A DNA stretch of 64,000 nt, taken from Prosopocoilus inquinatus. Taxonomy: Eukaryota; Arthropoda; Insecta; Coleoptera; Lucanidae. The position numbers and the translations under genes were made by a program. Below, piece by piece: positions 22,625 to 47,200 of this stretch (its first letter is position 1; every line of letters begins with the position of its first letter). The DNA lies in assembly GCA_036172665.1 (NCBI GenBank), contig CM069871.1, forward strand, positions 58,402,713 through 58,466,712. The letters are read 5' to 3'. A model generated the notes under the pieces. That model ran no database searches. It worked only from the letters and a program-made list of their open reading frames with translations, and was not told the origin of the DNA.

Positions 22625-22695
22625 CTTGCCCGGTGCAATGATTAAAATATACTGAATCAGATGTGTAAAAAATTAAATAATAAGTTCTCCCCTTC

Positions 22696-22824: not shown

Positions 22825-22880
22825 CTTTTCGAGAATGAATGAATAAAATGACTACACAACACTTTATTTATAATTAATTT

Positions 22881-24101: not shown

Positions 24102-24122
24102 TTTTTTTTTTTTTTATCTTCT

Positions 24123-24266: not shown

Positions 24267-24281
24267 TTTTTTTTTTTTTTT

Positions 24282-25127: not shown

Positions 25128-25179
25128 TTTTACTAGGTCAACGGTTATCAAGCGAATGAAACACTAAATATGATTTATT

Positions 25180-26034: not shown

Positions 26035-26054
26035 TATTTTTTTCCTTGAAGAAT

Positions 26055-27104
26055 TTATTTCAATATATTATCATATGATTTTGGTTTTTTCTTTTCAACA
26101 TTGTCATCATCAACATCATCATCGATTGATAATTTTCTCTTCAAAGATGTATTTTGTTGTATAACGGGATCACTTGGATTTATTTTAATTTTTTTAAATT
26201 CAAAATCATCGTTATCGTCCGTTTTATCTAATTTTCGTTTTTCACGTCTGGACAGTTTCATTGGACAGTCCTCTACCAAACCTACATCTATTTTTTCAGT
26301 TTTATTTTTGTTCTTTCTTTTTTGATGTGTGATTGGATAGTCATCAATAATATCTACATCCATTTTTTCATCTTCTTCTTCAAGGTTAATTTTAGTTTTG
26401 TTCCTAAGTTTTCGTTTTACAGCCTTCTTTTTCTTCTGTACTAATTCGTTCTTTTTGGTTTCTTGGATTAATTTTTTTTTGTATTCAATATTATCGTTTT
26501 CATTTATTCTCTTTTCATTAATTTTATGCGGTTTCATTGAGAAGTTATCTGTAATATCTACATCTGTTTTATGATGTGCTCGTTCTTTAATGTTCTTTAC
26601 ATTAGGTTTAAGTACCATCTTCTTCTTCTTCTTATCCTTTTGTACTGTATCGTTTTGTGTTAAAACTTTTATACAATATTCAATGTTTTCAACCAGAGAC
26701 TCTGCTGTTTTTCTTGTTTTTTCTAATTTTTTAAAACATTCATTAATAGACTTTTTCGTCGTTAATCCCATTCCCAATTTTAGTTTGGCTTTCATGGCTC
26801 CTGCTACTCCCAATGAAGCGGCTTTTTCACCCCACGAAGCATCCTTGGATCGAAATCTTTCCATTGCTTTCTTATATAATTTATTATCTGCCACGTGTCT
26901 ACGTGCTAAATCTTTTTCTTGAGAATAAGCTTTGTCATGTTCCTTGCATGCCTCATCTAAATCGTTTATACCGATGTCACCGCGTGCCAAGCGTTTATGT
27001 AGTTTAGTACCGGGTCCGCAAAATCTATAAGTAGGTATGTGCATTTCAAAGGGTAAATTATTGATAGCTGAATTTAATAATCCGTCTCCTATATAACACT
27101 TCAC
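26055..27104 (-). CDS. Phospholipase A2-like protein (parvovirus VP1-type domain)
   Basis: About 350 codons. Residues 25-80 hold a calcium-loop motif (FCGPGT) and the catalytic His-Asp pair in EACKEHDKAY, the arrangement of the parvovirus capsid PLA2-like domain used for endosome escape. A Gly/Ala-rich helix follows (AASLGVAGAMKAK), and the remaining ~230 residues are Lys/Asp-rich low complexity. The open frame begins at a GTG (27,104) with a stop just upstream. The first ATG is 20 codons in (27,044), after a conserved-looking GDGLLNSAINNLPFE segment. The start may therefore be mutated, non-AUG, or supplied by an upstream exon. It is divergent to the ATPase gene with under 100 bp between them. 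Confidence 0.82.
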   Translation of the reverse strand: MKCYIGDGLLNSAINNLPFEMHIPTYRFCGPGTKLHKRLARGDIGINDLDEACKEHDKAYSQEKDLARRHVADNKLYKKAMERFRSKDASWGEKAASLGVAGAMKAKLKLGMGLTTKKSINECFKKLEKTRKTAESLVENIEYCIKVLTQNDTVQKDKKKKKMVLKPNVKNIKERAHHKTDVDITDNFSMKPHKINEKRINENDNIEYKKKLIQETKKNELVQKKKKAVKRKLRNKTKINLEEEDEKMDVDIIDDYPITHQKRKNKNKTEKIDVGLVEDCPMKLSRREKRKLDKTDDNDDFEFKKIKINPSDPVIQQNTSLKRKLSIDDDVDDDNVEKKKPKSYDNILK

Positions 27105-27203
27105 TCTAATTTTTTTTTTTTAACAAACGTGATTTCTTAAACGACAACTCTTTAACTGAATATAAATTTAAATGTAAAACTATTTCATAACATTTCTCAT
27201 GTG

Positions 27204-27908
27204 ATGCTCCATCTGTCTAACAATATGAAATTAGTTAAACAAAAAATAACTTTAAAAATAGAAAATAATAGTTTTGAAGATGAACGTTTTAAAAGACACG
27301 GTGTACTATTTCCTGCGACCTTGAGATGTATTATCGTAGGTCCTTCGAATTGTGGAAAGACGAACCTTATCATTAACTTGATCGAACATGAAAACGGTTT
27401 GGCATTTGAAAACGTTTACGTGTACTCGAAATCATTAAATCAACCGAAGTATGTTTATTTACAACAGCTATTGAAGCCGATCAAAGGCATCGGTTATTTT
27501 GCGTACAGTGCAGGTGAGAACATACTTCCACCTTCACAAGCGAAACCTAATTCGATTTTTATTTTCGACGATGTTGCATGCAACAATCAAGACATAATTA
27601 GAGAATATTTTAGTATGGGTAGACATAATTACATAGATTCGTTTTATCTCTCTCAAACGTATGCCAAAGTGCAAAAACATTTGATTAGAGACAATGCTAA
27701 TGCTCTCATACTTTTCAAGCAAGATGACCTAAATTTAAAACACGTTTACAACGATCACGTTGGCACTGACATGAATTTCGATAAATTTAAAAATATTTGT
27801 TCTCTCTGTTGGGGAAGCGGTCCGTACGAATTTGTAACTATTTTTAAAGATAATCGCATGGATGATGGAAGATACAGGAAAGGATTTGATCAGTATATAT
27901 ATCTCTGA
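27204..27908 (+). CDS. Genome-packaging ATPase (FtsK/HerA, A32-like)
   Basis: 234 residues from the ATG at 27,204; the GTG one codon earlier is discounted. Walker A is GPSNCGKT (about residues 46-53) and Walker B is IFIFDD (Asp122, Asp123). A Gln in the SQTYAKV segment fits the sensor position. By family knowledge this motor packages DNA into preformed capsids in Polintons, adenovirus-like and pox-like viruses. It starts the plus-strand gene block and is followed 58 bp later by the conserved acidic protein. Confidence 0.93.
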   Translation: MLHLSNNMKLVKQKITLKIENNSFEDERFKRHGVLFPATLRCIIVGPSNCGKTNLIINLIEHENGLAFENVYVYSKSLNQPKYVYLQQLLKPIKGIGYFAYSAGENILPPSQAKPNSIFIFDDVACNNQDIIREYFSMGRHNYIDSFYLSQTYAKVQKHLIRDNANALILFKQDDLNLKHVYNDHVGTDMNFDKFKNICSLCWGSGPYEFVTIFKDNRMDDGRYRKGFDQYIYL

Positions 27909-27966
27909 TGAACTTATATTGTAGTTATTAAGGTTTGAAATATCATACGAACCGTTACTTCTCAAG

Positions 27967-28974
27967 ATGACCGATAAATGTATGAAACAAAAACTTTTGT
28001 TAAAACGTAAAAATATTCGAGACAAATTAAATTATTTAAAACATGGTGAATTAACCAAAGAAAAGACGTTTGAACCTATTACCAAACATTTGAAAAATAT
28101 CGAAAGCAAATTACAACCAAGAAACGAAAATGAATTATCCAACATCCACGTAAAACCTTCAACCTCTCAGCAAGAACAACAACAACAACAACAACTACAT
28201 GATTTTACGACTCCCAAACAATATGATTTTGCAACTCCAAAAAGATTTTCTTCTATAAGAAAACGTAAACCATCAGTGATGGATTTTAACGAAGATGAAG
28301 CTGACGAATCGGAAAGATTTAAAGAATCTATTTTAGAAAGTGTTGAATCGGATGAAGAGGAAGATTCACGATTTAAGGGTCTCGATGAGAAAGCCTATGT
28401 CGATTATTTAGATCAGTATCATCCCTTACCTAGAAAATACATCAATGATATGTACACAGACGATGAAAATAAAGAATTTGATCATAAATATGGAGTGAGA
28501 CTCGATAAAAGTACTGAAAACTTAAGAATCGGTGACTCATCATTAAATCTCGATGGAGCTGACATAATTGTTAAAAATAGAAGGTACAAAGGTACTCCAG
28601 GATTATATGAGTTACTGTTTAAAAAATTCCCCGAGAATTACACCAAAGAAGATACTAAAAATTATAAACAAATCATTCTTAGGACTAATACTCATCGACG
28701 ACATTATAAATCGAATAAACAAGTAGATGGCAGTAAAATGCAAAAGTATAAAAATATTGTAGCTCCTTTAATTAACAACAGTAATAGTACAGGTAGTGGA
28801 TTGTTGATGCAAGCAACCGATAATAAAATCGATTACGTACATTGGAATGATCCAAATGAGCTTGTTGAAAGGTTAAGATTATTGTTAGCATCACAAGCGG
28901 CCGGTAATACGAGCCACACGAATGAAATAAATTCAATAATAGAGGAACTAAGAGAAGCTCGTATCATCAGGTAA
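27967..28974 (+). CDS. Conserved Polinton protein of unknown function (possibly DUF8207-like)
   Basis: 335 residues from an ATG. The N-terminal ~50 residues are a basic helix, followed by a Gln run (CAA/CAG repeat near 28,170) and an acidic middle (ESDEEEDSRF). The C-terminal region carries the block KYGVRL..LRIGDSSL..GADIIVKNRRYKGTPGLYELLF, then a basic segment. I associate the RYKGTPGLYELL motif with a domain widespread in insect Polintons, but cannot state its biochemical role. It lies between the ATPase and the integrase, 10 bp before the latter, so co-expression is likely. Confidence 0.8.
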   Translation: MTDKCMKQKLLLKRKNIRDKLNYLKHGELTKEKTFEPITKHLKNIESKLQPRNENELSNIHVKPSTSQQEQQQQQQLHDFTTPKQYDFATPKRFSSIRKRKPSVMDFNEDEADESERFKESILESVESDEEEDSRFKGLDEKAYVDYLDQYHPLPRKYINDMYTDDENKEFDHKYGVRLDKSTENLRIGDSSLNLDGADIIVKNRRYKGTPGLYELLFKKFPENYTKEDTKNYKQIILRTNTHRRHYKSNKQVDGSKMQKYKNIVAPLINNSNSTGSGLLMQATDNKIDYVHWNDPNELVERLRLLLASQAAGNTSHTNEINSIIEELREARIIR

Positions 28975-28984
28975 AGAAAAAAAG

Positions 28985-29923
28985 ATGGTGAATCTAATTA
29001 CAGACGCTAAAAAACAAGTAGTAGATGAAATTCACAAACCTGCAAGAATTAATTTTCAAAGGCGTAAAGTCATAATTAAATCTTTGAACGATCTGTATCA
29101 AGCCGACCTGGTGGAAATGATTCCTTACGCTAAGGAAAATAACGGTTATAAATACATATTGATCGTGATTAATTGCTTTTCAAAATACGTTTGGGCGTTC
29201 CCTTTGAAGAATAAATCCGGATCCGAAGTCAGCAATGCCATGGAAAAGGTATTTAACGAACAGTCACCTAATAATCTTCAGACGGACTTGGGAAAGGAGT
29301 TTTTTAATCAAGAATTCAAGAAATTAATGAAAAAATACAACGTTAACCATTATAATGTGTTCAGCGAGAAAAAGGCATCGATAGTAGAGCGAGTAAATCG
29401 AACAATCAAGAACGATATGTTTAAAAACTTTAACCTACAAGGCAACTACAAATGGATAAATTTATTAAAACGTGTCGTGGAAAAATACAACAACAAAAAG
29501 CACAGAACAATAGGCATGAAGCCGATCGAAGTCGGAAAGGAAAACGAACAAGAATTGTTGAATACCGTGTACAACAAAGTTAAATTAGTTGACTTTAAAA
29601 GTAAAAAATTCAATGTCGGTGATTACGTACGTATTTCTAAAATTAGAGGAATCTTCGATAAGTCATATATGCCTAATTGGTCAACGGAGATTTTCACGAT
29701 TCGAAAAGTACAACTCACAAATCCGATTACTTATTTATTAAAAGACACAACCGGAAGTGACATATCAGGAGGATTTTATAAAGAACAATTACAAAAAGTA
29801 AAATATCCAGACGTTTATCTCGTGGAAAAAGTTTTAAAAAGAAATAAAAATAAAGTGTTCGTGAAATGGTTAGGTTTTGATAAGACACATAACAGCTGGA
29901 TAGATAAAAATAACATTGCATAA
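28985..29923 (+). CDS. int: Retrovirus-type integrase with C-terminal chromodomain
   Basis: 312 residues from an ATG. An RNase-H-fold catalytic core has Asp41 (YQADLVEM), Asp101 (LQTDLGKEF) and Glu135 (SIVERVNR), a D,D-33-E arrangement. A basic SH3-like region follows, then a C-terminal chromodomain (about residues 275-312: VYLVEKVL..VKWLGF..NSWID). A classic HHCC zinc finger is not evident at the N-terminus. By established Polinton biology it integrates the linear element and creates the 6-bp duplication; the chromodomain probably guides it to modified chromatin, which is inference. Confidence 0.95.
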   Translation: MVNLITDAKKQVVDEIHKPARINFQRRKVIIKSLNDLYQADLVEMIPYAKENNGYKYILIVINCFSKYVWAFPLKNKSGSEVSNAMEKVFNEQSPNNLQTDLGKEFFNQEFKKLMKKYNVNHYNVFSEKKASIVERVNRTIKNDMFKNFNLQGNYKWINLLKRVVEKYNNKKHRTIGMKPIEVGKENEQELLNTVYNKVKLVDFKSKKFNVGDYVRISKIRGIFDKSYMPNWSTEIFTIRKVQLTNPITYLLKDTTGSDISGGFYKEQLQKVKYPDVYLVEKVLKRNKNKVFVKWLGFDKTHNSWIDKNNIA

Positions 29924-30729: not shown

Positions 30730-30733
30730 ATTG
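30730..30733. repeat. LTR-retrotransposon target duplication, left (ATTG)
   Basis: ATTG precedes the LTR start TGTCACG and is repeated at 42,221-42,224 after the LTR end GTGACA. Four bp is usual for gypsy-type integrases. Confidence 0.93.
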
Positions 30734-31114
30734 TGTCACGAAGGGTGCTTTTGTTAATTTAAACACTCTGTATATACATGTTAAATATTGCGGTACGGTG
30801 GGGCACACTTTGCTGAGTCGCCAATATCGGAATGAGCGCTCGATCGCGTCTTCGATCGGAGCGGGGGACTATTCGCTGGGCAAGGGCGACTCAGGAACGT
30901 GGGTCTTCCGGAGATTGGGTTGGTTGTGCCAAATAAACGTGATACTCAGTGAGTGGGCTTTTCCTGGACCCCTTTACCCTCATACCAGCTTCAGGCGACC
31001 CCAAGAAGGCCGGTAAGTCGATCCAATTTTTAAACGGCAAAACGGTTCCTTTACCACTGAGCTACCCCCTCATTTTTATGATAGCATCGCCGCTACCCCG
31101 GAGCGAGCGTGACA
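30734..31114 (+). repeat. 5' LTR (381 bp)
   Basis: Starts TGTCACGAAG and ends GAGCGTGACA, the same as 41,840-42,220 by block-by-block reading. It contains AATAAA at 30,932-30,937 and a strong splice-donor consensus GTAAGT at 31,013-31,018. Confidence 0.97.
31013..31018 (+). promoter_or_regulatory. Candidate splice donor for subgenomic env RNA
   Basis: CCG followed by GTAAGT in the LTR downstream of the poly(A) signal, a near-consensus donor. Acceptors of the form TTTTATTTTTAG occur just before the env ATG (about 39,013-39,026). Errantivirus env is made from a spliced RNA; use of these sites here is inference. Confidence 0.4.
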
Positions 31115-31798
31115 GTGGTGGAGGCGCCTCTTTGCGCGATAATTTGAGTAGAAGTAACGTTTAACATTAATTGGGTCGGGACACGTAGTCAACTCGTTAG
31201 GGTGCGGTCACTTGAAATACCTCGTGTGTTTTAGGCAAAAGCGGTCACAGTTTATGATATATTTTTTTAAATACAATTAGAGAATCCAGCCCGCTAATTA
31301 TAAATACCTTTCCTTTTTCTTATCTAAATAATGCGTTGATCAAAAAACTGCCACTTTGCCATTTATAAGAGCTATAGGTCGTTCAAACCAACAACGCAAC
31401 GGTATGAATTGATAACCAAATATTAATTTTTAAATAAATACGGTGTCCAATATTAACAAAAATTATTAAATAAAAAGGAATACGTGTGCGGTAATTATTT
31501 AATTGCACGTACCGCGGAAGTTCACTGAACAGGTGTATTGTGACACGTTGCTGTGTCAGACGATTTTAAATAGGTAACAATTAAAATCGTATACGATAAA
31601 AATGTGCAAATGTAAGGCACTATAGTAAGGTGCTTATTGCGGTCTATAAAAAGCCTAATAATAAAAAGGGCCCAAAGAGACAAAATAAATATTAGCGTAC
31701 ACAAAGATGCTTCTAATAAACATAATATTTAATTATCGGAACATTAATTAAGGCGGACGGAATAATCTCGGGTAAATTTAATAACGTTTGATACATAA
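31115..31798 (+). other. Untranslated leader with possible primer-binding site
   Basis: 684 bp between the LTR and the gag ATG. TGGAGGCGCC begins at 31,119, four bases past the LTR. It resembles, but does not clearly match, the complement of a tRNA 3' end, so the primer is undetermined. No ORF here is supported. Confidence 0.5.
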
Positions 31799-33583
31799 AT
31801 GGCTGAAGGACCCAGAACAAGGCTAAGGAGCAAAGACGACGAAAAAGTCGAGAATTTAATAAAGGAAAAAAAGAAGCCAGAAATTCACGTAACATTAGAT
31901 AAACACGCTTTTTTCCCGCTAGCGAGGAGCACATTGACACCACGATCGCCGCCAGCAGGTCGAAAAAATTTACAAATAACATTAGGCAGCGAAGAAGACT
32001 TAACAATTTTGGAAGATAAAAATGACAAAACAGAGACACTAGAACAAACACCCGCGATTACCACGCCTAACAGAGGTCAGCAGACTCAAGTCAGTCCGAA
32101 CCCACACCAATTTCGGACATTGAAACAAGTCTTACATCAAGAAAACCAGCGGCAAATTCTAAATCCCGGTCCAATACCCGATCCCCCCACTTGGCCAGAA
32201 CGACTGAGCACAGAGACAACAATTAAACCGAAATCCTTAGCGGAATCGATAATGGAACAAAGAGAAAAAATACTGGAAACGCGCGTTGCGCCATCAGCAG
32301 ATGATACGTTCTTACGAAAAGGAGCAATTCCGAAACAAAATAATATCGTACAGAGGAAACAATTGGAACCTAATAACGGAAAATTGAAGCAAAACCCGGA
32401 AATCCACGAATTTAATTCGAAGGAACCTAATTGGACGAGTAGAAATAAATCAATTAGTATGTTTTATAACACACGTAAATCAGTGGCGCCAAAATTTTCG
32501 AAACCACCAGCTTTTAATCCGCAGGAAGATGATCCTATGACTTTCTTGAAAAAATATAAAGTTGTAGCCAAAATGAACGGTTGGGACGAATTGGAACAGC
32601 TGGGATATTTGGAAAATTCTTTGGAAGGTAGTGCACTTTCCTGGTTTGAAAATTTGATAAGAAATAATCCAGAGGCCGATTGGGATTGGACAATAAAAAA
32701 GTTCAAAGATAAATTTTTAGGTCCCAATTTCGAATTTAAATTGCAAGAAAAATTAATTATTCGGAAACAACGAACAAACGAAAGCTTAACGGACTTTTTT
32801 TATTCATTTATAGAAATCTGTAACGATTATAATCCGAAAATGCCCGAAAGAGAAATACTACAACGCTTGATGGCGGGATTATTACCCTACTATAGACATA
32901 TGGTATGCATAAAGTGTCCAACAAGTTTAAAAGATTTAGAACATTTTATGGACACCATAGAAGAGACAGAAAAGGAAGGGAAGACAATTCTGCATAAGGA
33001 CGTGGGGAAAAATCCCGAAGATGAGAATCACGGCTATGACCTACGAAGATCGGACATAAGACAAGATCAGTCGGAAACAATGGGCATAATAAATAAATTA
33101 ATCGACAAATTGACTGTTGACCGAAAAGAAGACGCCTTTAGAGATCGAAAGGGGGATTCTGTTTACTACAATGCCAGAAGAAAACTCGAGCATACAAAAT
33201 TTGGAGAGGATGACAAAAAGAATAATTTTCATTTGACAGGAATCAAAAACCAAAAGCATTATCAACGAACTTCAAACATCTTTAATTGCCAAATTTGTGG
33301 TTACGCTGGTCATATGGCCAGAAATTGTAGAAAATTGACTCCAAGAAGAGGGTATAACAATGACAACAATAAAGAAGCGAGATCAGTGAACGTCCCGACA
33401 TGTCAATGGTGTAATACAAGAGGACACACAGCGTCAACATGTAGAAAATTAGTAGCAGGAAGGCAAATTCCCAATAATCCACTGAACAGAGAGGGGCAAT
33501 GCGTAATTAAGAAAGGATACGATTATGGCAGAAAGATGAATAATAATTTAAATGGTACAGGACAGAGCACGAAAAGGCCCTGA
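31799..33583 (+). CDS. gag: Gag polyprotein with two zinc knuckles
   Basis: 594 residues from ATG. The N-terminal third is charged and Pro-rich. Residues ~220-400 look like a gypsy-type capsid region (DPMTFLKKYK.., LEGSALSWFENL, LREKLIIRKQ-like segment, LMAGLLPYYR). Two CX2CX4HX4C zinc knuckles sit at Cys497-Cys510 and Cys535-Cys548, giving RNA binding and packaging. The TGA stop at 33,581-33,583 lies in the loop of a predicted hairpin that follows a slippery heptamer, so Pol is probably made by -1 frameshifting. Confidence 0.93.
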   Translation: MAEGPRTRLRSKDDEKVENLIKEKKKPEIHVTLDKHAFFPLARSTLTPRSPPAGRKNLQITLGSEEDLTILEDKNDKTETLEQTPAITTPNRGQQTQVSPNPHQFRTLKQVLHQENQRQILNPGPIPDPPTWPERLSTETTIKPKSLAESIMEQREKILETRVAPSADDTFLRKGAIPKQNNIVQRKQLEPNNGKLKQNPEIHEFNSKEPNWTSRNKSISMFYNTRKSVAPKFSKPPAFNPQEDDPMTFLKKYKVVAKMNGWDELEQLGYLENSLEGSALSWFENLIRNNPEADWDWTIKKFKDKFLGPNFEFKLQEKLIIRKQRTNESLTDFFYSFIEICNDYNPKMPEREILQRLMAGLLPYYRHMVCIKCPTSLKDLEHFMDTIEETEKEGKTILHKDVGKNPEDENHGYDLRRSDIRQDQSETMGIINKLIDKLTVDRKEDAFRDRKGDSVYYNARRKLEHTKFGEDDKKNNFHLTGIKNQKHYQRTSNIFNCQICGYAGHMARNCRKLTPRRGYNNDNNKEARSVNVPTCQWCNTRGHTASTCRKLVAGRQIPNNPLNREGQCVIKKGYDYGRKMNNNLNGTGQSTKRP

Positions 33584-33592
33584 ACTCTGTCC
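33547..33592 (+). promoter_or_regulatory. -1 ribosomal frameshift signal at the gag-pol overlap
   Basis: The heptamer T TTA AAT (33,547-33,553) is in the gag reading phase and fits the X XXY YYZ rule. After a 6-nt spacer, GGACAGAG (33,560-33,567) pairs perfectly with CTCTGTCC (33,585-33,592). The pol frame opens exactly at 33,547, just after an in-frame TAA (33,544-33,546), and the gag stop lies in the loop. All three elements of a classical -1 signal are therefore present. Confidence 0.85.
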
Positions 33593-36500
33593 GGAATTAT
33601 TTCCAAAAAGGGGCCTCAAGTGATAGTGGTTCGTGTAGTGAAACAAGGAAAAATAATAATATTAAGTGTAATTTAATAACAATTCCAACAAATGACGCCA
33701 ATATATTGACAACAACAGGTAGTCTTAATGGAAGAGATGTTAATATTATTGTGGACACGGGAGCAGCATTTAACGTTATTACTAGACGTTTTGCAACCGA
33801 TATATTACCATTGGAAAATTCGCCCGTTCTGAATACGATTAATAATAAAAAAGTTGTCCCTTTAGGAATGTCAAAAGTAACGGTTTCACTGAGGGGCAAA
33901 ATTTTTTTGCTACAGGCACTAGTTGTGGAGAACCTGACAGCACCACTAATTTTAGGATGCCCTTTTCTTAAGGATTATGATGCCGAAATAAATTTTTCTT
34001 CCAAGGAAATTAAGTTGAATAACCTAGAAACGAGCGTTGAAACTAATTTAGAAATACGGCAACAAAATATTGATAGTATTAAAAGTCAAAATTCCCGAAG
34101 ATTAGGACAGGGTTGGCTAAAAATACCTAAATGGACAAGTCAAAGGGTCTCGTATGAGAATTTTAAAAATCAGGACACAACGAAATTTTCCACTGAAATC
34201 AAGTACGTGAAGACAGATTTATTTAATTTACCAAAGTCATTTAGTTTAGCTCATTGCGTATCAGCCGATCTAAGAATGTCTAAAGGTATTGCTAAGTTAT
34301 TTAAAGCTAAATTTGATAACATCGAGCAACTTAAAAACCAGAATCCAAATGTGGGAAATGTGGTTTACTTAAAATTAAAAGAGAGATTTGTTTTTTACTT
34401 AATAACAAAAAGACATTCGCAGGATAAACCAACTTTACAAAATATTTTTAATTCCCTCTTATCGTTAAAACAGCTGATGGTACAAAATAAACTCGAAAAT
34501 TTAGGGATGCCAAAAATAGCTTGCGGAATGGATAAGCAAAAATGGAAAACTATAGAAAAAATGATACGATACATCTTTCAGGGAACAGACATTAACATCA
34601 ACATATGTGAACTGCCAGAACAAGATTATCAAAAATCAGCAACTACAGCTCATAAAAATAAAACAGCAGTGTCTTGGAACGAACTACCAGGAGAGGATAT
34701 CGTAGATGAAATTGTACAAGATCAAATAATTAAGGTCAATATAGCGGAAGATGCAATGATTGAAGGAGGAGAATCTAGAAGCTGTCAAATTAAATTTTCA
34801 GATAATGCAAACTTTGAAAAACCATTACTGTTTTGTACGTTTCATGCAAGAGGACAATTTCTTCATAAAAATAAATTGGAGATAGCAGATGATTTTCGAG
34901 ATTTTGGAAATAATAAAATTAACATCTCTAATTATGATAAAAACAGAAAACTAATCAAGAAGGATACGGCATTGGGCTACATTGTGGTGGATAACAAAAA
35001 TGAAATTGGAAAAATATTAGCAGAACAAAATAAGCTTTTAAATTTAAATGTAGTGATGGAAGAAAAGTCGTCAAAAGTTTATAACATAAACAATCATCTG
35101 CAAGACGAAGAAAAGAAGAAATTAGAAAATTTATTACAGAAAAATTCAGACATTATGGCATGGACAAACCTACTTCTCGGAAAAACAGATCGGGCAGAAC
35201 ACACGATCGATATTGGACAAAACAGCCCCGTCAAATCACGACCATACAGGGTAAGTATGAAGGAGCGGGATATCATTAAACAACAAATAGAAGAGATGTT
35301 GGAAGCCGGGATCATACGTCCTTCAGACAGCGAATTCGCTTCGCCCGTCGTGTTAGTAAAAAAACCGGATGGTACATTTAGATTCTGTGTTGATTACCGG
35401 AAACTGAATGCCATCACAACGAAGTCATCGTACCCCCTACCGCTGATAGATGATATACTAAATTTTTTAGGAGGAAATAAATATTTTTCGACACTAGACT
35501 TAAACAGCGGTTACTGGCAATGTCCAGTTAAAGAAGAAGATCGGCATAAAACGGCATTTACAACAAACGATGGGCTGTATGAGTTTAACCGCTTGAGCTT
35601 CGGACTGTGTAATGCACCAAGTACCTTCCAAAGGCTGACTGACTCAATATTTAAGGACTTAAAATGGAAGGAAGTGGCAATCTATTTAGACGATATCATC
35701 GTGGTAAGCAATACCATGGAGGAACACTTAGAACGTTTACAAAGAGTCTTCAATTGCATAAAAGGAGCAGGTCTTACTTTAAAACCTTCAAAGTGCTATT
35801 TTGGAATGCAGGAACTTAGGGTGTTAGGATTTAAGATTTCAACTAAAGGTATATTACCAGACGAGACAAAGATCCAAGCAGTAAGAAATTTCCCTACACC
35901 AAGAAAAATAAGAGAAGTTCAAAGTTTCTTAGGATTATGTAATTTTTTTAGACGGTTTATTAAAAATTTTTCAATTATCGCCGGCCCGTTGTATAACATT
36001 ATTGGGGCAAATTCAAAATTTGAATGGGGTCAAAACCAGAAAAAAGCTTTCGAAGCTCTAAAAGAAAAACTAACCAGTGCTCCCATCTTAGGACATTACA
36101 ATCCTACGGCAGAAACCGAGCTACGAGTAGATGCGAGTGGAAACGGAATCGGAGCAGTTTTATTGCAAAAAGACGTGGTGTCACAAAAACTTCACCCTAT
36201 TTCGTATATCTCAAGAACTCTTACCAAATACGAAAAAAGCTACCCCATAACAGAATTAGAATGCCTAGCGGCAGTATGGTCGGTGGAATACTTTAGATCG
36301 TACTTGTGGGGATTGGACAGCTTTCACATAATTACAGATCACCACGCGTTGTGTTGGCTACAGACGTTAAAAACTCCCGGAGGTCGTCTACTGCGCTGGT
36401 CGTTGAAACTGATGGAATATTCATACAAAGTTTTCCATAAAAAAGGAACATCAAACAAGGATGCGGATGCACTCTCGAGGTACCCTTGTACTCTAGGAAC

Positions 36501-38841
36501 CACAGAAGATGAGAAGGAAGCACAAAATGTTCCAACATTCATTGCAAGTGCAACAGATCTGGAAAAGTGGCAAAGGAAAGATTCACGTTTACAAGAGATA
36601 AAAAAGGCAGTAGAAAATCCTGAATATGGAGGACCAGCAATCCAAAGAGCAGCAAAAAATTATGAACTGGTTAATGAGGTTTTGTATAAGAAGGACCCGT
36701 CATCCATAACTGACGCAAAACTATTAGTTATCCCGCAAAATTTAAAAGAAGAGATTATGACAAATTTCCATCGGGATCCCATAAGCGGCCACTTAGGATT
36801 GACTAAAACTCTAGATAAGATCAGAAAAAGATATTTCTGGGAAGGAATGAAACAAGATATCACAAAATTTATTAGGGGTTGCCCAGAATGCCAAATTCGG
36901 AAGGGACCAACAAATCGGAAACCTGCAGGATTACTGAAACCCATTACAACGGAAACGCCTTTCGCCATGGTAGGAATTGATCTTTTAGGCCCATTTCCAC
37001 GAAGTTCAGCCGGAGCAAAATTCATAGTTGTAGCAACGGATTATGCTACACGTTGGGCTGAAGCTAAGGCCCTGCCAAGTGGAAAAGCTGAACCCGTAGC
37101 AAAATTTATAGTAGAGCAGCTCATTTGCAGACACGGATCACCAAAAAGAATTTTAAGTGATCGCGGAGCAGTGTTTCTATCCAATTTAGTTACAGAAATT
37201 TTAAAATTATTAGGAAGTGATAGTTTATTTACAACTGCGTACAAACCCTCAACGAATGGACTAACGGAGCGATTAAATAAAACAATAGCCGACATGATTA
37301 GTAAATATACGACTAATTCCCAAAAGGATTGGGATGTTTTCCTGCCACATTGCATATTTGCTTACAATACATCACGGCAAGAGGCCACTAAGCATAGTCC
37401 ATTTTCGTTGGTATATGGTCGCGAACCAGTTCTTCCAACCGATGCGGAACTTAGCCAACCAATGTCTACAGAATTTACACTCAGAAGTCAACAAGTGATA
37501 CGTGAGACACGGGAAATCGCCAAAAGAAACATCGAAAGGAAACAGGAAAACGACAAAGAAATCTATAATAAAAAGCACAGGTATGTCAGCTTTAACGTGG
37601 GCGACAAAGTGAAATTAAGAAATTTTGTCAGAAAAGTAGGAAAATGTGAAAAGTTGTTACCAAAATACTTCGGCCCGTTCGTCATAATTGAAAAAAGGAA
37701 TGATTTGAACTATGTAATTTCAACAGATTCCGGAAAAAATAGCAAACAGGATGTGGTACATGTTTCAAGATTAGCACCTTTTTATGAACAATGGAAAGAA
37801 GATGGTTCCCAAGATACTTTTAAGAGAGCCAAGTGTTTCTACAAGAGCCGAAAACATGACAACTCAAAAGAAAATATGGAGAACATGGGCTTTAAACCAA
37901 TTCAAGTAAATGAAATAAAAGGTTTAAAAAACACGGGAAATACGTGTTACCTAAATTCGGTTATAAGCTGTCTCGCGCATATAGAAGAAGTAACACACTT
38001 TTGTAGGCAATATTCACCGAGAAATAATAAAGAAAACGTAAATTTTTTAGAAAATTTTGTACAAACAATTAATGATTTAACCAATAATTCCAAGAAGAAA
38101 GTAATATCAATATCAAGATTAAAAAATAAACTAGAAGCGGTAAATCCCTTATTTAAAGGGAAAGGGCAACAGGACGCCCACGAGTGTCTGTTTTATATTC
38201 TACAGATCCTCCACGAAGAAGCAAAACAAGTTGAAAATCGAAACAGTGAAAAATCATTTATATCAGACATTTTTGCGGGCGCATACGATTTAATGGCGGA
38301 ATGTCTAGAATGTGGAAATCAGTCCATCACCAAAAGTCCAGGATGGGGCATTTCACTTTCCATAGATAAACATAGAGACACCCGCTTGGAGACTTGTTTG
38401 GATAATTACTTCGGAGAAGAGATTCTTTCGGAAGATAATCGGCCTATTTGTTGGTCTTGCCGTAAAAGAACCAACACTAGAAAATATACAAAAATTGTGA
38501 AATTGCCGGAGTACCTGGTGCTACATTTCAACAGTTACTATTGGTCGGGTCAAGAGACTGAGAAATTACATAAAAGTGTAAAATTTCCATTAACTGATTT
38601 AAATGTAGGAACATTCTATAAAAATGTTGAAAGTAAAAATACAAGGTATAATTTACAGGGGGCAATTGAACACGTAGGAAGTGCGAATGAAGGACATTAC
38701 ATAAGTTACATTACAGGCAAGAATTCACAAGGAATTGACACCTGGGTGAAATGTAACGATGATGTAGTAACTAAAATAGACTCAAAAGAACTTTTAGAAA
38801 AAAATATGTACATACTTTTTTATAAGCGAGAAAACCATTAG
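33547..38841 (+). CDS. pol: Pol polyprotein: PR - macrodomain - RT - RNase H - integrase - USP
   Basis: Open from 33,547, in the -1 frame relative to gag. Residues are numbered from codon 33,706. Aspartic protease: Asp17 in VDTGAAF. Macrodomain: 167-302. Reverse transcriptase: ~530-720 with YLDD (Asp662, Asp663). RNase H: ~800-925 (Asp809, Asp878, Asp921). Integrase: zinc site His1022, His1029, Cys1059, Cys1062, then catalytic Asp1092, Asp1152, Glu1188 (DD35E), and a GPF module at 1323-1325. Ubiquitin-specific protease: 1403-1708. There is no internal stop or frame change, so both extra domains are translated with the enzymes. A ~170-residue beta-rich linker lies between macrodomain and RT. 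It has no ATG near its 5' end, in keeping with frameshift expression. Confidence 0.95.
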   Translation, partial: FKWYRTEHEKALNSVRNYFQKGASSDSGSCSETRKNNNIKCNLITIPTNDANILTTTGSLNGRDVNIIVDTGAAFNVITRRFATDILPLENSPVLNTINNKKVVPLGMSKVTVSLRGKIFLLQALVVENLTAPLILGCPFLKDYDAEINFSSKEIKLNNLETSVETNLEIRQQNIDSIKSQNSRRLGQGWLKIPKWTSQRVSYENFKNQDTTKFSTEIKYVKTDLFNLPKSFSLAHCVSADLRMSKGIAKLFKAKFDNIEQLKNQNPNVGNVVYLKLKERFVFYLITKRHSQDKPTLQNIFNSLLSLKQLMVQNKLENLGMPKIACGMDKQKWKTIEKMIRYIFQGTDININICELPEQDYQKSATTAHKNKTAVSWNELPGEDIVDEIVQDQIIKVNIAEDAMIEGGESRSCQIKFSDNANFEKPLLFCTFHARGQFLHKNKLEIADDFRDFGNNKINISNYDKNRKLIKKDTALGYIVVDNKNEIGKILAEQNKLLNLNVVMEEKSSKVYNINNHLQDEEKKKLENLLQKNSDIMAWTNLLLGKTDRAEHTIDIGQNSPVKSRPYRVSMKERDIIKQQIEEMLEAGIIRPSDSEFASPVVLVKKPDGTFRFCVDYRKLNAITTKSSYPLPLIDDILNFLGGNKYFSTLDLNSGYWQCPVKEEDRHKTAFTTNDGLYEFNRLSFGLCNAPSTFQRLTDSIFKDLKWKEVAIYLDDIIVVSNTMEEHLERLQRVFNCIKGAGLTLKPSKCYFGMQELRVLGFKISTKGILPDETKIQAVRNFPTPRKIREVQSFLGLCNFFRRFIKNFSIIAGPLYNIIGANSKFEWGQNQKKAFEALKEKLTSAPILGHYNPTAETELRVDASGNGIGAVLLQKDVVSQKLHPISYISRTLTKYEKSYPITELECLAAVWSVEYFRSYLWGLDSFHIITDHHALCWLQTLKTPGGRLLRWSLKLMEYSYKVFHKKGTSNKDADALSRYPCTLGTTEDEKEAQNVPTFIASATDLEKWQRKDSRLQEIKKAVENPEYGGPAIQRAAKNYELVNEVLYKKDPSSITDAKLLVIPQNLKEEIMTNFHRDPISGHLGLTKTLDKIRKRYFWEGMKQDITKFIRGCPECQIRKGPTNRKPAGLLKPITTETPFAMVGIDLLGPFPRSSAGAKFIVVATDYATRWAEAKALPSGKAEPVAKFIVEQLICRHGSPKRILSDRGAVFLSNLVTEILKLLGSDSLFTTAYKPSTNGLTERLNKTIADMISKYTTNSQKDWDVFLPHCIFAYNTSRQEATKHSPFSLVYGREPVLPTDAELSQPMSTEFTLRSQQVIRETREIAKRNIERKQENDKEIYNKKHRYVSFNVGDKVKLRNFVRKVGKCEKLLPKYFGPFVIIEKRNDLNYVISTDSGKNSKQDVVHVSRLAPFYEQWKEDGSQDTFKRAKCFYKSRKHDNSKENMENMGFKPIQVNEIKGLKNTGNTCYLNSVISCLAHIEEVTHFCRQYSPRNNKENVNFLENFVQTINDLTNNSKKKVISISRLKNKLEAVNPLFKGKGQQDAHECLFYILQILHEEAKQVENRNSEKSFISDIFAGAYDLMAECLECGNQSITKSPGWGISLSIDKHRDTRLETCLDNYFGEEILSEDNRPICWSCRKRTNTRKYTKIVKLPEYLVLHFNSYYWSGQETEKLHKSVKFPLTDLNVGTFYKNVESKNTRYNLQGAIEHVGSANEGHYISYITGKNSQGIDTWVKCNDDVVTKIDSKELLEKNMYILFYKRENH
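34204..34611 (+). other. Macrodomain (TARG1/OARD1-like ADP-ribosyl hydrolase) inside Pol
   Basis: Pol residues 167-302. Landmarks of the TARG1/OARD1 branch are visible: LAHCVSADLRMSKGIA (ribose/phosphate loop), YLITKRHSQDKPT and MPKIACGMDKQKW. The Lys of ITK (235) and the Asp of CGMD (276) fall where human TARG1 has its catalytic Lys84 and Asp125. By family knowledge such enzymes remove ADP-ribose from acidic residues and deacylate O-acetyl-ADP-ribose. It sits between protease and RT. Retained catalytic residues argue for activity; substrate and role are unknown. Confidence 0.88.
37912..38829 (+). other. Ubiquitin-specific protease (USP) domain at the Pol C-terminus
   Basis: Pol residues 1403-1708. 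The Cys box is GLKNTGNTCYLNSV with Cys1414. QQDAHE follows at ~1488-1493. Zinc-ribbon Cys pairs are 1533/1536 and 1582/1585. The His box is NEGHYISYI with His1664, and Asp1685 follows in KCNDD. The full catalytic triad and zinc ribbon of C19 peptidases are present in a compact ~305-residue domain. It follows the integrase C-terminal module with a ~40-residue linker. It would cleave ubiquitin from proteins; whether it is released by the viral protease is unknown. Confidence 0.93.
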
Positions 38842-39049
38842 TCAACACGTGTTGGTCAAATTTACATAGATATACAATACGTTAAAGTAGACATTAAATA
38901 TATTATTATTTTACTTATATTTCTTTATGTTTTAGGTGTAATTTAGAAGACATCAATTGGGGCCCCAAACACGAAACAATCTATTATTGTTCTAATATTA
39001 AAAATATAGCTTATTTTTATTTTTAGTCATAAAGGTAAACAAACAAAAC
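38842..39049 (+). other. pol-env spacer with candidate splice acceptors
   Basis: 208 bp. Pyrimidine-rich acceptors ending TTTTAG occur at about 38,936 and 39,026. No ORF. Confidence 0.4.
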
Positions 39050-40972
39050 ATGTGGCCACAAAATTTAGCAGCATGTATTTTATATCTGCTAATAACGGAA
39101 AATGCGAGAGGCGAATTGGATCAAAAATACGAGATAAAATCCATGGATGGGACGTCAGGAATGGTATACGAGGATCTAGGTAAATTCTATATAACGGATT
39201 CCTTCTGGAATTTGTTAACTTTCATAGACTTAGATAAATTTGAAGAAAAATTTGTGCAGATCATTAATCTTTTTAAAGATACTGAAAAAATATGTAATGA
39301 TAAAACATTAAAAGCGTCTGATTTATGCGGAAATTACTTAAATATAATAAATGCAACAATTAATCGCGTAAAATGGGAAAAAGATATGATTCCAAATTTA
39401 TTAGGGCATAATTTGGTAAAACGAGGATATTTTGACGCAATTGGAAAAATTTCTAAGACTTTATTCGGTACTCTAACGACTGATGATGCAGAAAGATTTG
39501 AAAAGATGATAAATGAAGTTGAAGCTGACCAGGACACTTTGTCTAAAGTTATGAAAAATCAAACAATAATAGTAATGTCAACATTAGATTCACTAAATAA
39601 TACATTAGGCCATATTGAGCATAATGAAAAACTGATTTCCCAGAGTTACAATTCGATAAAAAATATTTTAGGTAAAACTGCAACGGAAGTGGATTTCTTG
39701 TATAGAATAGACAGGCATTTGAAAGATCATATATCGATACTAACGACAATTATTGAGCAGTATAAATTAGAGGTAATAAATTTAATAAATATTATTGTTT
39801 CGGCAAAGCAGGGAATATTTCATCCATTATTTATCTCTCCAACAACCCTATTAGAAAATTTGAAGTCCATAATCACATTTATACCGGCAGGGGTTAAATT
39901 CCCTACAAATATTGATAACCCAAATGCAATAGAAGCCTTATTTAAAATTAGTAAATTAAGTATATTTTTCAAAAATTCAAAGTTATATGGAGTAGTCAGA
40001 ATACCGTTAGTCCAAATTAAGCCGTTTACATTCTACAAATTAATTTCTATCCCTGTGAGATGGCATAAGAATATATTTGTAGTAATTAAACTTTCATACG
40101 CATACCTTGCACTAAATGAAATAAGATCAGAATTCGTCCTGTTGGACAAAGATGAAATGTTAACAATTATTTCTCTACAAGATCAGGTGTATATTTCACT
40201 TAAAGAAAAAACTTTAATTACTACAAACAAAAATATTTGTGAGATACAATTATTGTCATATAAAAAATCAATTCCAGATATTTGCGAGCGGCACGTGTTA
40301 ACTATTAATCACATTTATTTTATGGAGTCTGTATTAGCAAATTCGTGGATATTTGTAACCCCAAATGCAGAATCGTTAACATTAACTTGCACCGGTCAAG
40401 ATGGCAACAACACAATTAAATATATAAATTTAAACGGCACCGGTAAACTTTATTTGGCAACAGGATGTAAAGCATTCTCTGAAAATGTAATACTGAAGGC
40501 AATACAAACGGAAGAATTCGAATTATTTCAACATATACCTTCTTTAAACATGAAAGATTTTAATGAGAAAGGGGATAATTTGACGTCACCATTAATCGAA
40601 GATCTAAAAATATTAGATTTAGAAAAATTAGAAAAAGTAATGAACATTAATGAATCTCTGATAAATAAACGCCAAAAGCTAGAATCAGTTCTAAACGATA
40701 TTAATAATATCCAAATAAAACATAAACACAAACTAAAAGAAAATTATGAATCGATTATATTATACTGTGTAACAATAACTATTATTATAAGTATAGGCAC
40801 ATATTGTTTTAAAAAAAGATTAGGAACGTGTAATCGAAAAAACCAGAAAAGGAGAGAAAATATCCTTATGAAGGAGTATGAGGAAGGAACCTTCGTATTA
40901 CCTGACGGAAGGAAGTGTACGGTAAACCTACGGGAGGCGACTTCACGTGAGGAATTGGATCGTCTGAACTGA
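39050..40972 (+). CDS. env: F-type envelope glycoprotein of the LTR retrotransposon
   Basis: 640 residues from ATG. An N-terminal hydrophobic stretch (residues 5-16) is a probable signal peptide. A dibasic site (LVKR, ending at residue 125) is followed by a GYFDAIGKISKTLFGTL segment, the cleavage-plus-fusion-peptide arrangement shared by errantivirus Env and baculovirus F proteins. A heptad-rich helix follows (about 145-240). A transmembrane segment lies at about residues 568-587, with a ~50-residue cytoplasmic tail. By family knowledge it would mediate membrane fusion. The ORF is intact. The cleavage site lacks a full RXK/RR consensus, so processing efficiency is uncertain. Confidence 0.9.
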   Translation: MWPQNLAACILYLLITENARGELDQKYEIKSMDGTSGMVYEDLGKFYITDSFWNLLTFIDLDKFEEKFVQIINLFKDTEKICNDKTLKASDLCGNYLNIINATINRVKWEKDMIPNLLGHNLVKRGYFDAIGKISKTLFGTLTTDDAERFEKMINEVEADQDTLSKVMKNQTIIVMSTLDSLNNTLGHIEHNEKLISQSYNSIKNILGKTATEVDFLYRIDRHLKDHISILTTIIEQYKLEVINLINIIVSAKQGIFHPLFISPTTLLENLKSIITFIPAGVKFPTNIDNPNAIEALFKISKLSIFFKNSKLYGVVRIPLVQIKPFTFYKLISIPVRWHKNIFVVIKLSYAYLALNEIRSEFVLLDKDEMLTIISLQDQVYISLKEKTLITTNKNICEIQLLSYKKSIPDICERHVLTINHIYFMESVLANSWIFVTPNAESLTLTCTGQDGNNTIKYINLNGTGKLYLATGCKAFSENVILKAIQTEEFELFQHIPSLNMKDFNEKGDNLTSPLIEDLKILDLEKLEKVMNINESLINKRQKLESVLNDINNIQIKHKHKLKENYESIILYCVTITIIISIGTYCFKKRLGTCNRKNQKRRENILMKEYEEGTFVLPDGRKCTVNLREATSREELDRLN

Positions 40973-41826
40973 TCAGCAGACATCCAACCCTCGACGGAAG
41001 TAGTGTCCCGAGGTTAACTACTAATAAGAAAATTACAATTTCTAATTACATTTTCCGTTAGCTTAAGAAAATTTTAGCACTTAGTAGTAAACATGTACTA
41101 TATAAGTATTACTCATTTTTTTTCCTTGACCTACGCAAGGAAATGGCCAATCGTTGCGTCGGTACTAGATATTTTTGTTATTACCATTATAATTATTATA
41201 TTAAAGTTCTTGTTAATTCTACGATTGTAATACTTGTATGTCATTCAAGCATAATACCAAATTTAACAGAAAATATTTTTATAACTTTATATTGAATCAG
41301 AGATTAGTCAAATATTGTAATTCATTGGGCACAACCTACAAACCTAACGTATATTGTAAATGTAAAATTCTGATGCTGCCTTTTCTTTTATGGACGCTGC
41401 CGAAGAACCAAGGATATTATCGAGTTAATCAACGGACAAAGGAAAGAAAATATGGAACCAAAAAATCCTAGTGGAGGGAAAAGTAGTTGAGGCTCCTAAA
41501 CGATAAACCGAAGGTCAACACCAGAGCAAAATGAAGATGATGCCTGAATTAAGTAGGGCATCACACAAGTACATATACTACGAATTCAAGACCGAGTTTA
41601 CCACCTTAAATCACTTCGACCTATAAGCAAACGAGGAGTCCCTCCAACATCTTGAATTTGAACATCATTCGGACCATGGAATAAATAGAAAATCAGCAGT
41701 TGATCCATTAAGAATAATGTGTAGCTTTGTTAACATATTTAAATTATAATTCAATTAGCTATTAGGAAAAGTAATATCTTCGTGACGGCTATTGGTAATA
41801 TAAATATGCATGGAAGCATATTCTCC
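40973..41826 (+). other. 3' untranslated region of the LTR retrotransposon
   Basis: About 850 bp between env and the polypurine tract. A 77-codon ORF at 41,238-41,471 has no recognisable motif and is not called as a gene. Confidence 0.5.
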
Positions 41827-41839
41827 GGCGGGGGGGAAA
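41827..41839 (+). promoter_or_regulatory. Polypurine tract
   Basis: A G-rich purine run (GGCGGGGGGGAAA, one C) abuts the 3' LTR start, the expected plus-strand primer position. Confidence 0.85.
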
Positions 41840-42220
41840 TGTCACGAAGGGTGCTTTTGTTAATTTAAACACTCTGTATATACATGTTAAATATTGCGGT
41901 ACGGTGGGGCACACTTTGCTGAGTCGCCAATATCGGAATGAGCGCTCGATCGCGTCTTCGATCGGAGCGGGGGACTATTCGCTGGGCAAGGGCGACTCAG
42001 GAACGTGGGTCTTCCGGAGATTGGGTTGGTTGTGCCAAATAAACGTGATACTCAGTGAGTGGGCTTTTCCTGGACCCCTTTACCCTCATACCAGCTTCAG
42101 GCGACCCCAAGAAGGCCGGTAAGTCGATCCAATTTTTAAACGGCAAAACGGTTCCTTTACCACTGAGCTACCCCCTCATTTTTATGATAGCATCGCCGCT
42201 ACCCCGGAGCGAGCGTGACA
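41840..42220 (+). repeat. 3' LTR (381 bp)
   Basis: Same length and, as read, same sequence as the 5' LTR, implying very recent integration. Confidence 0.97.
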
Positions 42221-42288
42221 ATTGTGCCAAAGATCATGCTAATTTATTATGTCAATGGTTTGTTACAGATTGTAATAAAAAATTGTAA

Positions 42289-44265: not shown

Positions 44266-47200
44266 ATGAATTTCAGTCAGCAGTTGGGTGGCATCTTGAA
44301 GAAGATTGAAACTGTTGGTAAGTTAGTTAAAACAAAAAAAGATTATTTAAAATGGGTTAAATTCATTAAAAAAACAATTTTTTTAACCAAGAAGTACTTA
44401 AAGCTTTTAAATAAAGAAAAAATTCCAAATTATTCAAAAATCGAATCGTATTTAACACTTTTGTTAAATTATAGAGAAATTTTTAAAGAACAATTAAGAA
44501 AAAAAAGAAACCAAAAAAGAAAGTCTTTGGTTTGGCAGGATCTAGAGTCATGTTTTAAAAATAGAATGAGGACAGGTGCAGTAATTAATTTAAGCATTAA
44601 AGACCCAAATTTGTTTTTTCTAAAATCTTATAGACATTTTTATTTTAAAATCAAGAAAGAATTATCGAAAAGTGTTTTAAAAGTAAATGTAATATTTTTA
44701 GCCAACTTTGTTAAACCGCAAAATGGTGAAACAGATATCAAACATTTTACGACTAGAAATCACGTAATTGATCACTCTACAAATTTAAAGGAATGGTACG
44801 AGATAAACGTTAAAAATAAAATTTTATCAAAATTAGAGGAATTTCAAGAAAGGGACAGCGGATGGGCTCTATATGAAATTTTACAATTAAAAATTAACAT
44901 TAATAATTATACACCTATAACCGGAAGTATTTCAACGTATGTTGAAATGCCTAATTTTATTAAAAATAAAAAGTGTGTCTTAAATATACAAAACAACGAC
45001 AAATATTGTTTTCTATGGTCAATCGTGGCAGCTTTATATCCTGCACCTGCACATAAAAAATCTGAACGTGTTTCATCTTATCCACATTTTTCAAATGTTT
45101 TAAAATTTGAAGGTATTCATTTTCCTATTAGTTTGAAAAACGTTAAAAAATTTGAGTTATTAAACGAACTTTCAATTAACATATTTACAATAGAAAAAAC
45201 AGAAGTATTACCAATTTCCTTGAGTAAGTTCGACTTTACAAAACGAATTAATTTATTAATGATTCCCTGTGAAGAAGAAGAAAATTCTGATGATGATGAA
45301 ATTAACTTAAATATAAACTCAGAGATTACATTTCACTTTGCTTTAATAAAAAATTTGTCCGGTCTACTTCACAGACAAATCGGTAACTTACATAATAAAA
45401 AGTGGTTTTGTGAACGTTGTCTAAATCATTTCGGATCGGAAGAGAATTTGAAAAAGCACATAATTTCGTGCAGAGATATAAATAAAACTAAAATTACGAT
45501 ACCACTTGAAAGAGAAAAATATCTAACATTTAAAAATTTTAAAAATAAAGAGAAAGTTCCCTTTGTAATTTATGCAGACATAGAATGTATATTGAGAAAA
45601 TATAATGATTTAAAATCTTCAAATAAAAACATAAAGCATCAAAAACATGAACCCTTTTCTATAGCATATTTTTTGCTCTGTTCATATAATCCAACACTTT
45701 CAAAATTCAGTTTACATACTGGGAAAGATTGTGTAAGCTGGTTTGTCAATGAACTAGAAAAAATCGGCTTAGAAATTAATGATATTTTTTCGAACGTGGT
45801 ACCGTGTGAGAAATTAACGGTAAAAGAAGAGTGTGACTATCGAAATGCCACACATTGTCACATTTGTTTAAAACCATTCAACAATTTTACTGATATAAAA
45901 GTACGTGATCATTGTCACTTAACTGGCAGGTATCGAGGAAGTTGTCATCAAGCGTGCAATCTAAATTATAAAAACAGTAACGCAGTACCCGTAATCTTTC
46001 ACAATATGTCAGGTTATGATAGTCATTTTATAATAAAAGCTTTAGCTACAGAAATTCCAGGCAAAATTGATTTATTACCGATTAATAAGGAAAAATATAT
46101 TTCATTTTCTAAATACATTTCAAATACTAATATTAATTTTAGATTTTTAGATTCTTTTCGATTCATGGCTAGTAGTTTAGATAAACTTTCCTCATATTTA
46201 GAGAGCGATCAAAAAGTAATTACCAAAGCTCATTGTAAAAATAATACTGAATTTAAATTGCTTGAAAGGAAAGGAATTTTCCCCTATGAATATCTTGACA
46301 ATTGGGAAAAATTACAAGATACAAATTTACCATCAAAAGATAATTTTTTCAGTAAAATTAATCAATCTCACATATCAGACGGTGAATATGAGCACGCATT
46401 GAATGTATGGCATACATTCAATATTCAAAATTTACAAGAGTACGCAGAATTGTACTTGAAAACGGATGTTTTGCTTTTAGCTGATATTTTTGAAAATTTC
46501 AGGTCAACATGTTTGCAAACTTATCATTTAGACGCGTTACATTATTATACAGCACCAGGTTTAACTTTCGACAGCATGTTGAAAACAACTTCCATTACCT
46601 TAGAATTATTAACGGACGTTGACATGATAATGTTTATCGAAAAAGGCATCAGAGGTGGGGTATCACAGTGTTCTAATCGTTATGGTAAAGCGAATAACAA
46701 GTACATGAACGATTTCAATGCTGATGAACCTTCATCATTTTTAATGTATTATGATGTTAACAACTTGTACGGTACAGCTATGTGTCTACCTTTACCTTTT
46801 GCTCAATTTGAATGGGTAGATCCTTACTCGATAGATATCATCAATGTCTCAGATGATGCTGAATTTGGTTATATTTTGGAATGTGATTTACTTTATCCCG
46901 AAGAACTATTTGAAAATCATAGAGATTTACCACTCTGTCCTGAACGTTTAGTACCACCATCATTATCTTCAAAAGTTCCAAAATTATTAACAACTTTATT
47001 TGATAAAAAACAATACGTTATACATTACAGAAATTTAAAGCAAGCAATCCAATTAGGATTAAAAATTGAAAGAGTCACTAGAGTATTAAAATTTAAGCAA
47101 TCGAATTGGATGGAACCGTACATAAATTTAAATAATGATTTACGTAAAAAAAGTAAAAATGATTTTGAAAAAAATTTTTATAAACTAATGAACAATTCGG

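Follow-up and report, generated by a model that had tools for sequence, protein, structure and literature searches.

Among retroviruses, dUTPase is a familiar accessory enzyme captured at different positions in Pol, although it serves nucleotide hygiene rather than the erasure of protein modifications. ADP-ribosylation recurs in the antiviral responses of vertebrates, where viral macrodomains serve to counteract it. Fish epsilon-like endogenous retroviruses (ERVs) carry macro domain open reading frames (ORFs) (PMC4977317, citing Basta et al. 2009); these are additional ORFs of vertebrate retroviruses, and the passage on them mentions no ubiquitin-specific protease (USP). Within one chain, a macrodomain and the deubiquitinating protease PLpro occur together in coronavirus nsp3 (PMC7832007). 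Here we describe, in a 64,000-nucleotide stretch of the genome of the beetle Prosopocoilus inquinatus (contig CM069871.1, positions 58,402,713 to 58,466,712; the whole stretch is called the window below), a Ty3/Gypsy long terminal repeat (LTR) element whose Pol polyprotein carries both a macrodomain of the TARG1 (OARD1) type and a USP domain. The earlier note on this DNA knew of no described LTR element with this pair, and none was seen in the titles and abstract openings listed by literature searches of the open PMC set; the fish ERVs are a partial precedent. The main texts of two insect ERV papers (PMC12992720 and PMC13172572) contain none of the terms macrodomain, macro domain or ubiquitin. 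Since most subscription papers and Repbase lie outside this literature search, elements of this kind may have been noticed before.

As the earlier note had claimed, one uninterrupted frame encodes protease, macrodomain, reverse transcriptase (RT), RNase H, integrase and USP, an order with which the Pfam matches agree:

33547..38841, + strand: pol frame of 1764 amino acids (aa), open for 1764 codons
33715..33972, + strand: aspartic protease (Pfam gag-asp_proteas, E 1.3e-6)
34192..34602, + strand: TARG1-type macrodomain (OARD1, E 3.4e-38)
34408-34410 and 34531-34533, + strand: codons of the macrodomain dyad, K288 and D329, by alignment to TARG1
35356..35838, + strand: RT core (RVT_1, E 2.1e-34)
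36025..36420, + strand: RNase H (RT_RNaseH, E 9.4e-34)
36730..37779, + strand: integrase, with zinc-binding, core and C-terminal domains (Integrase_H2C2, E 2.2e-21; p58_C, E 6.2e-8; core rve, E 5.5e-6, below the Pfam cut-off)
37921..38823, + strand: USP/C19 predicted deubiquitinase domain (Pfam UCH, E 2.2e-56)
37945-37947, 38695-38697, 38755-38757 and 38758-38760, + strand: USP codons C1467, H1717, N1737 and D1738

The macrodomain (Pol residues 216-352) matches human TARG1/OARD1 across its full length. Five OARD1/C6orf130 chains fall between E 3e-38 and 5e-38, and the sole other match among those listed stands at 0.053; this domain-wide homology places it with TARG1 rather than with MacroD. 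The profile search that the earlier note had proposed recovered the USP readily and left the macrodomain at 20.5 bits, under the 22-bit cut-off of Pfam Macro, a shortfall that we attribute to the Pfam model because of the strength of the TARG1/OARD1 match. The window's domain is 45% identical to TARG1, and the copies listed from the genome span 39-53%. The residues that the note had reported as Lys235 and Asp276, counting from a TTG at 33706 and thus 53 below the present numbering, are K288 and D329, and they align with K84 and D125 of TARG1. PMC7050489 names Lys84 and gives residue 125 as Glu, whereas the letter in the solved chain is Asp. By homology, the domain is predicted to hydrolyze ADP-ribosyl linkages; unlike TARG1, a free nuclear or cytoplasmic enzyme, it lies inside Pol. 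A genome search with the human domain (best 150 of 1286 candidates scored) returned a list filled by repeat copies, in which a donor host TARG1 gene was not distinguishable.

The USP domain (Pol residues 1459-1759) matches USP2 in sequence (E 1.8e-43) and is predicted to act as a deubiquitinase. An AlphaFold2 model (pLDDT 78, from a four-row alignment) finds USP2, USP46 and USP8 as its best solved matches (USP2 at E 3.1e-30, TM 0.82), and the predicted fold, the Cys, His and Asp/Asn catalytic boxes and the zinc-finger CxxC pairs together assign it to the peptidase C19 family, in the vicinity of USP2, USP8 and USP21. It differs from these cellular enzymes in being fused to integrase and compact (about 310 aa), with roughly 30% identity to USP2. 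The residues earlier numbered Cys1414, His1664 and Asp1685, now C1467, H1717 and D1738, are likewise in place: together with the zinc cysteines 1586, 1589, 1635 and 1638 they are invariant across the window's family and three divergent ones, and Cys, His and Asp are retained in 9/9 sequences examined. The third triad residue of USP2, an Asn, aligns with N1737; this position is Ser in one family, while the adjacent D1738 is constant among the element families compared.

The likeness to nsp3, a macrodomain and a deubiquitinating protease in a single viral polyprotein, is best read as an analogy. The USP model matches cellular USPs at E ~3e-30 as against 7.7e-8 at best for coronavirus nsp3/1a, and among viral structures it finds mostly giant-virus USPs first, then weak coronavirus and torovirus nsp3 or polyprotein matches. 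Giant-virus USPs share the fold as proteins of large DNA viruses, not as domains of Pol. PLpro, a distant structural match only, doubles as the viral protease, and the element's macrodomain is of the TARG1 type; nsp3 thus serves as a working analogue, and a common origin of the pair is not implied.

The pair is not confined to the window. We searched the genome (650 Mb, 173 contigs) with both domains; the USP search scored 94/94 candidates and gave 81 matches, and the macrodomain search scored the best 150 of 1301 candidates, so that its counts are lower bounds. Including the window's, 25 USP copies are at least 98% identical to it, and 17 copies sit in open frames of 1764 aa, in the USP and the macrodomain search alike. 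Three further divergent families, with USPs 35-50% identical to the window's, contain the pair: L009/L066 together with the close L067 (USP 48-50%; the L067 macrodomain match lies at C2:50321494), L010/L011 with the USP stretches L068 and L069 (43-44%), and L070 (35%). L071 and L072 are USP stretches near those of L010/L011. Because 25 near-identical copies and three divergent families repeat it, the arrangement is not a chance one. The search for other elements of the same order, as the earlier note had suggested, reached these families. Two sister families, L012 and L013, have protease, macrodomain, RT, integrase and env and no USP match. Three window-type copies at G000:C5:47386756-47410127 stand head to tail at a spacing of 11,482 bp, about a whole element with both LTRs; either a concatemer became integrated or the assembly is at fault there. 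Pairs of equal-scoring matches some 5-9 Mb apart (C6 at about 36.7-37.6 and 42.1-43.2 Mb; C5 at 31 and 40 Mb) suggest that large segments have been duplicated or that haplotypes were retained.

The integrase tree suggests an order for the two acquisitions. It unites the USP carriers (the window element, L009, L010, L011 and L070) in one clade (99/98) that excludes L012 and L013; probably, then, the lineage already had the macrodomain when it gained the USP, in a single event. In the RT tree the same five have no clade of their own, and their enforced grouping is not rejected by the approximately unbiased (AU) test (p-AU 0.184). The macrodomain-less relatives P0059 and P0071 adjoin the whole group with modest support. 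That the USP seems to have joined a single sub-lineage late and only once, a point beyond the earlier note, implies that the two enzymes need not target one linked modification.

Also beyond that note, the macrodomain is, judged from the genome's matches, a widespread module at several Pol positions in Gypsy lineages. Listed matches reach down to 42% identity, and most lack an internal stop. Among 11 loci fetched at length, the domain lies before RT in L009-L013 and also in L015, a distant RT clade, between RNase H and integrase in L014, and past the integrase in L016-L019. We examined the dyad in the window copy and 31 loci picked out of 151 matches: K84 is present in 32/32 and D125 in 29/32, the three misses being two stop-cut domains, each read in its first piece alone, and a domain with Asn. 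A macrodomain occurs in 5 of 120 listed Pol homologs (out of 6361), with the dyad and before RT in the metagenome Pols P0074 and P0082; no USP match was seen in the same 120. More than 1,280 first-look candidates also include further long-frame families with TARG1-type domains, such as frames of 1784 and 1953 aa.

A single capture of all Gypsy macrodomains is disfavoured by the Pol positions and the RT tree. In the macrodomain tree, forcing the pre-RT domains together is rejected (p-AU 0.031), as is a grouping of the window lineage with macrodomains from the metagenome (p-AU 0.032), and forcing the C-terminal domains together is not (p-AU 0.096). Independent captures are likely, yet not proven, since the groups were named post hoc and so short a domain gives a poorly resolved tree; shuffling of the domain between elements is possible. 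Tentatively, and with somewhat less than even confidence, we propose that a TARG1-type hydrolase is a recurrently captured, movable accessory of Gypsy Pol, in the manner of dUTPase in retroviral Pol, and that one env-bearing lineage later gained a USP as well, a case of convergence with the nsp3 design.

Selection was compared between and within families. For the macrodomain, dN/dS (the ratio of nonsynonymous to synonymous substitution rates) is 0.12 for window-L009, 0.19 for window-L010, 0.16 for L009-L010, 0.15 for both L012-L013 and window-L012, and 0.13 for L015-L034, rough values because between-family dS (1.4-2.7) is near saturation. For the USP it is 0.20, 0.20, 0.19 and 0.17, the fifth pair (window-L070) being saturated. 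In a simple draw of invariant columns, constancy of the seven USP sites has a probability of about 4e-6, and that of the macrodomain dyad only 0.03. Across the same family pairs, the USPs are 43-50% and the macrodomains 56-64% identical, compared with 81-86% for RT and integrase. We read these patterns as long-term constraint on both domains, the signal being weak when the young family is taken by itself; the dN/dS test that the note had called for gave low, if rough, ratios between families (about 0.12-0.20).

The element as a whole (30734-42220) is, by its sequence, a structurally intact, envelope-carrying and recently active Ty3/Gypsy LTR element. Its two LTRs are identical, a target-site duplication flanks them, and Pol runs protease-RT-RNase H-integrase; the RT-integrase homologs and the RT tree are compatible with Gypsy, in comparisons whose rows included no Copia, BEL or retrovirus contrast. 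With gag-pol-env, LTRs and a Baculo_F-type Env it resembles the errantiviruses, the envelope-carrying Ty3/Gypsy elements, and differs from them in the two extra enzymes of its Pol. The remaining features are:

30730..30733, no strand: target-site duplication ATTG, left copy, from the flank letters
30734..31114, + strand: 5' LTR, TGTCACG...CGTGACA, 381 bp, same sequence as 41840-42220
31115..31132, + strand: putative primer-binding site, TGG starting one base past the LTR
31799..33583, + strand: gag ORF, 594 aa (Pfam Retrotrans_gag, E 5.1e-10), with a CX2CX4HX4C knuckle by eye, the zf-CCHC score being under the Pfam cut-off
33547..33553, + strand: heptamer T TTA AAT in the phase of gag, a candidate site of -1 frameshifting, at which the pol frame exactly starts
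33560..33592, + strand: stem-loop with an outer stem of 8 bp, 6 nt 3' of the heptamer, by folding energy (region 33554-33610: -16 kcal/mol, z -2.3 vs shuffled sequences)
39050..40972, + strand: env ORF, 640 aa, Baculovirus F-type (Baculo_F, E 1.3e-31), with, by eye, a basic site plus a stretch resembling a fusion peptide at ~39419 and a hydrophobic C-terminal segment at ~40754
41826..41839, + strand: purine-rich tract directly 5' of the 3' LTR, read from the sequence
41840..42220, + strand: 3' LTR, 381 bp, identical to the 5' LTR
42221..42224, no strand: target-site duplication ATTG, right copy, from the flank letters

For the function of the pair, we lean, by a modest degree, towards the view that particle-borne erasers counter host ADP-ribosylation and ubiquitination, an idea raised by the earlier note and plausible by analogy with viral systems. 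Frameshifting would yield both enzymes at the level of Pol, and the Gag-Pol polyprotein would bring them into the particle alongside RT and integrase; their position in Pol behind the frameshift signal suggests such co-packaging. The element's protease would presumably release them, and they could then act locally around the incoming complex, on Gag, integrase, cDNA ends or host sensors. TARG1 cleaves ADP-ribose esters on Asp and Glu and phosphoesters at nucleic-acid ends (PMC7050489), which makes proteins and cDNA ends candidate substrates; the macrodomain would accordingly strip ADP-ribose from Asp/Glu esters and perhaps from nucleic-acid phosphate ends, and the USP would take ubiquitin off Gag, integrase, Env or host sensors. 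The marks so erased would be PARP and ubiquitin tags laid down by host defence or DNA-damage signalling.

Several observations weigh against this view. PARPs are few in insects, and we know of no ADP-ribosylation writer shown to restrict retroelements there. The sister families do without the USP, and the Pol frame is broken in every fetched copy of the three other pair-carrying families (in L070 macrodomain-RT and integrase-USP are split over two overlapping frames, and the frames of L009, L010, L011 and L067 are also interrupted). The metagenome Pols P0076 and P0118 have a degraded macrodomain, and P0073 a degraded C-terminal one, all without the full dyad. The between-family ratios are, as noted, rough, and RT and integrase synonymous sites are fully saturated in these pairs, which leaves dN/dS without a yardstick and the ratios not directly comparable. 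Six close macrodomain pairs (0.06-0.82) and four close USP pairs (0.42-1.05) scatter widely on few changes; in the 24 other copies of the window's family, nonsynonymous over synonymous changes come to 0.56 for the USP, which is not below the 0.45 of integrase, and to 0.64 over the initial 1290 bases of env, and singleton variants strike the zinc finger and D1738.

The enzymes might instead protect the element itself, the USP keeping Gag, integrase or Env from the proteasome, and the macrodomain removing ADP-ribose from cDNA ends or integrase when integration brings on DNA damage. Both domains adjoin RT and integrase in Pol, TARG1's action on phosphoesters at nucleic-acid ends (PMC7050489) would suit such a task, and the Gypsy loci L012-L019 have the macrodomain where no USP is seen, which suggests that it is useful on its own. 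The results fit self-protection and host antagonism alike; the USP and macrodomain nevertheless diverge faster than RT and integrase, which suits a host-facing role slightly better, and we hold self-protection to be rather unlikely. Catalysis could also be unimportant, the domains serving as ADP-ribose or ubiquitin readers, spacers or particle tethers. In P0076, P0118 and P0073 the macrodomain fold is kept although the dyad is incomplete, and for them binding may be all that counts, yet the near-universal K84 and D125 in the beetle genome and the invariance of the USP triad and zinc cysteines over four divergent families make such modules improbable. Host-sequence capture by retroelements is known in general, and the broken Pol frames of the other pair families would suit passengers captured by chance and carried neutrally. 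That explanation, already disfavoured, we consider very improbable, since the catalytic residues are held between families with near-saturated synonymous sites and low dN/dS, and the macrodomain recurs at several different Pol positions.

If erasure of host marks is the right account, the pair is a hint that ADP-ribose and ubiquitin tags both serve as weapons where host and retroelement are in conflict, and a TARG1-type eraser in the Pol of many insect Gypsy copies would point to a vertebrate-like conflict over ADP-ribosylation. Were recurrent capture and convergence on nsp3 also true, ADP-ribosylation and ubiquitination would be major unrecognised barriers to retroelements in insects. The macrodomain-USP lineage would offer a natural, testable case of an ADP-ribose eraser and then a ubiquitin eraser being recruited in order, and the substrates of these compact enzymes could expose the host pathway.

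We also searched proteins and viral contigs more widely. Uniqueness of the element was not argued from the database-wide protein searches, whose negatives we discarded because known carriers and cellular USPs were missed: the macrodomain-region search (162 candidates) gave 0 matches even though P0074 and P0082 carry the domain, and the USP-region search (1044 candidates) gave 0 at E 1e-10, with even cellular USPs of fitting length absent. Single-sequence scans of viral contigs gave no matches; the family alignment A4 found 103 stretches encoding TARG1-like proteins, of which 80 were kept (L075-L154), and two distant USP loci were also found. The TARG1-like frames are short (median 152 aa, longest 200), and none of the 82 loci matches the window's RT or integrase, so they are not elements of this kind; perhaps such short proteins protect against an ADP-ribosylating defence.

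The LTR element is apparently nested within a Maverick/Polinton (window 21896-29923 and 44266-47961), which has a double-jelly-roll capsid ORF (PF21738, E 7.6e-129), a PLA2-like ORF, a weak ATPase match, an integrase that also matches a chromodomain weakly and, beyond the insertion, a 1231-aa ORF in which motifs of DNA polymerase B were read by eye and for which Pfam names none. Elsewhere in the window, the minus strand has an 868-aa ORF that includes a reverse transcriptase of the RVT_1 type (50328-52934) and a 748-aa leucine-rich-repeat ORF (61242-63488). Both contig ends read show CCCAA/TTGGG repeats, in keeping with an insect host; the TTGGG-type telomere motif is described from some scarabaeoid beetles and a lacewing in PMC8233369 and PMC12564400, respectively.
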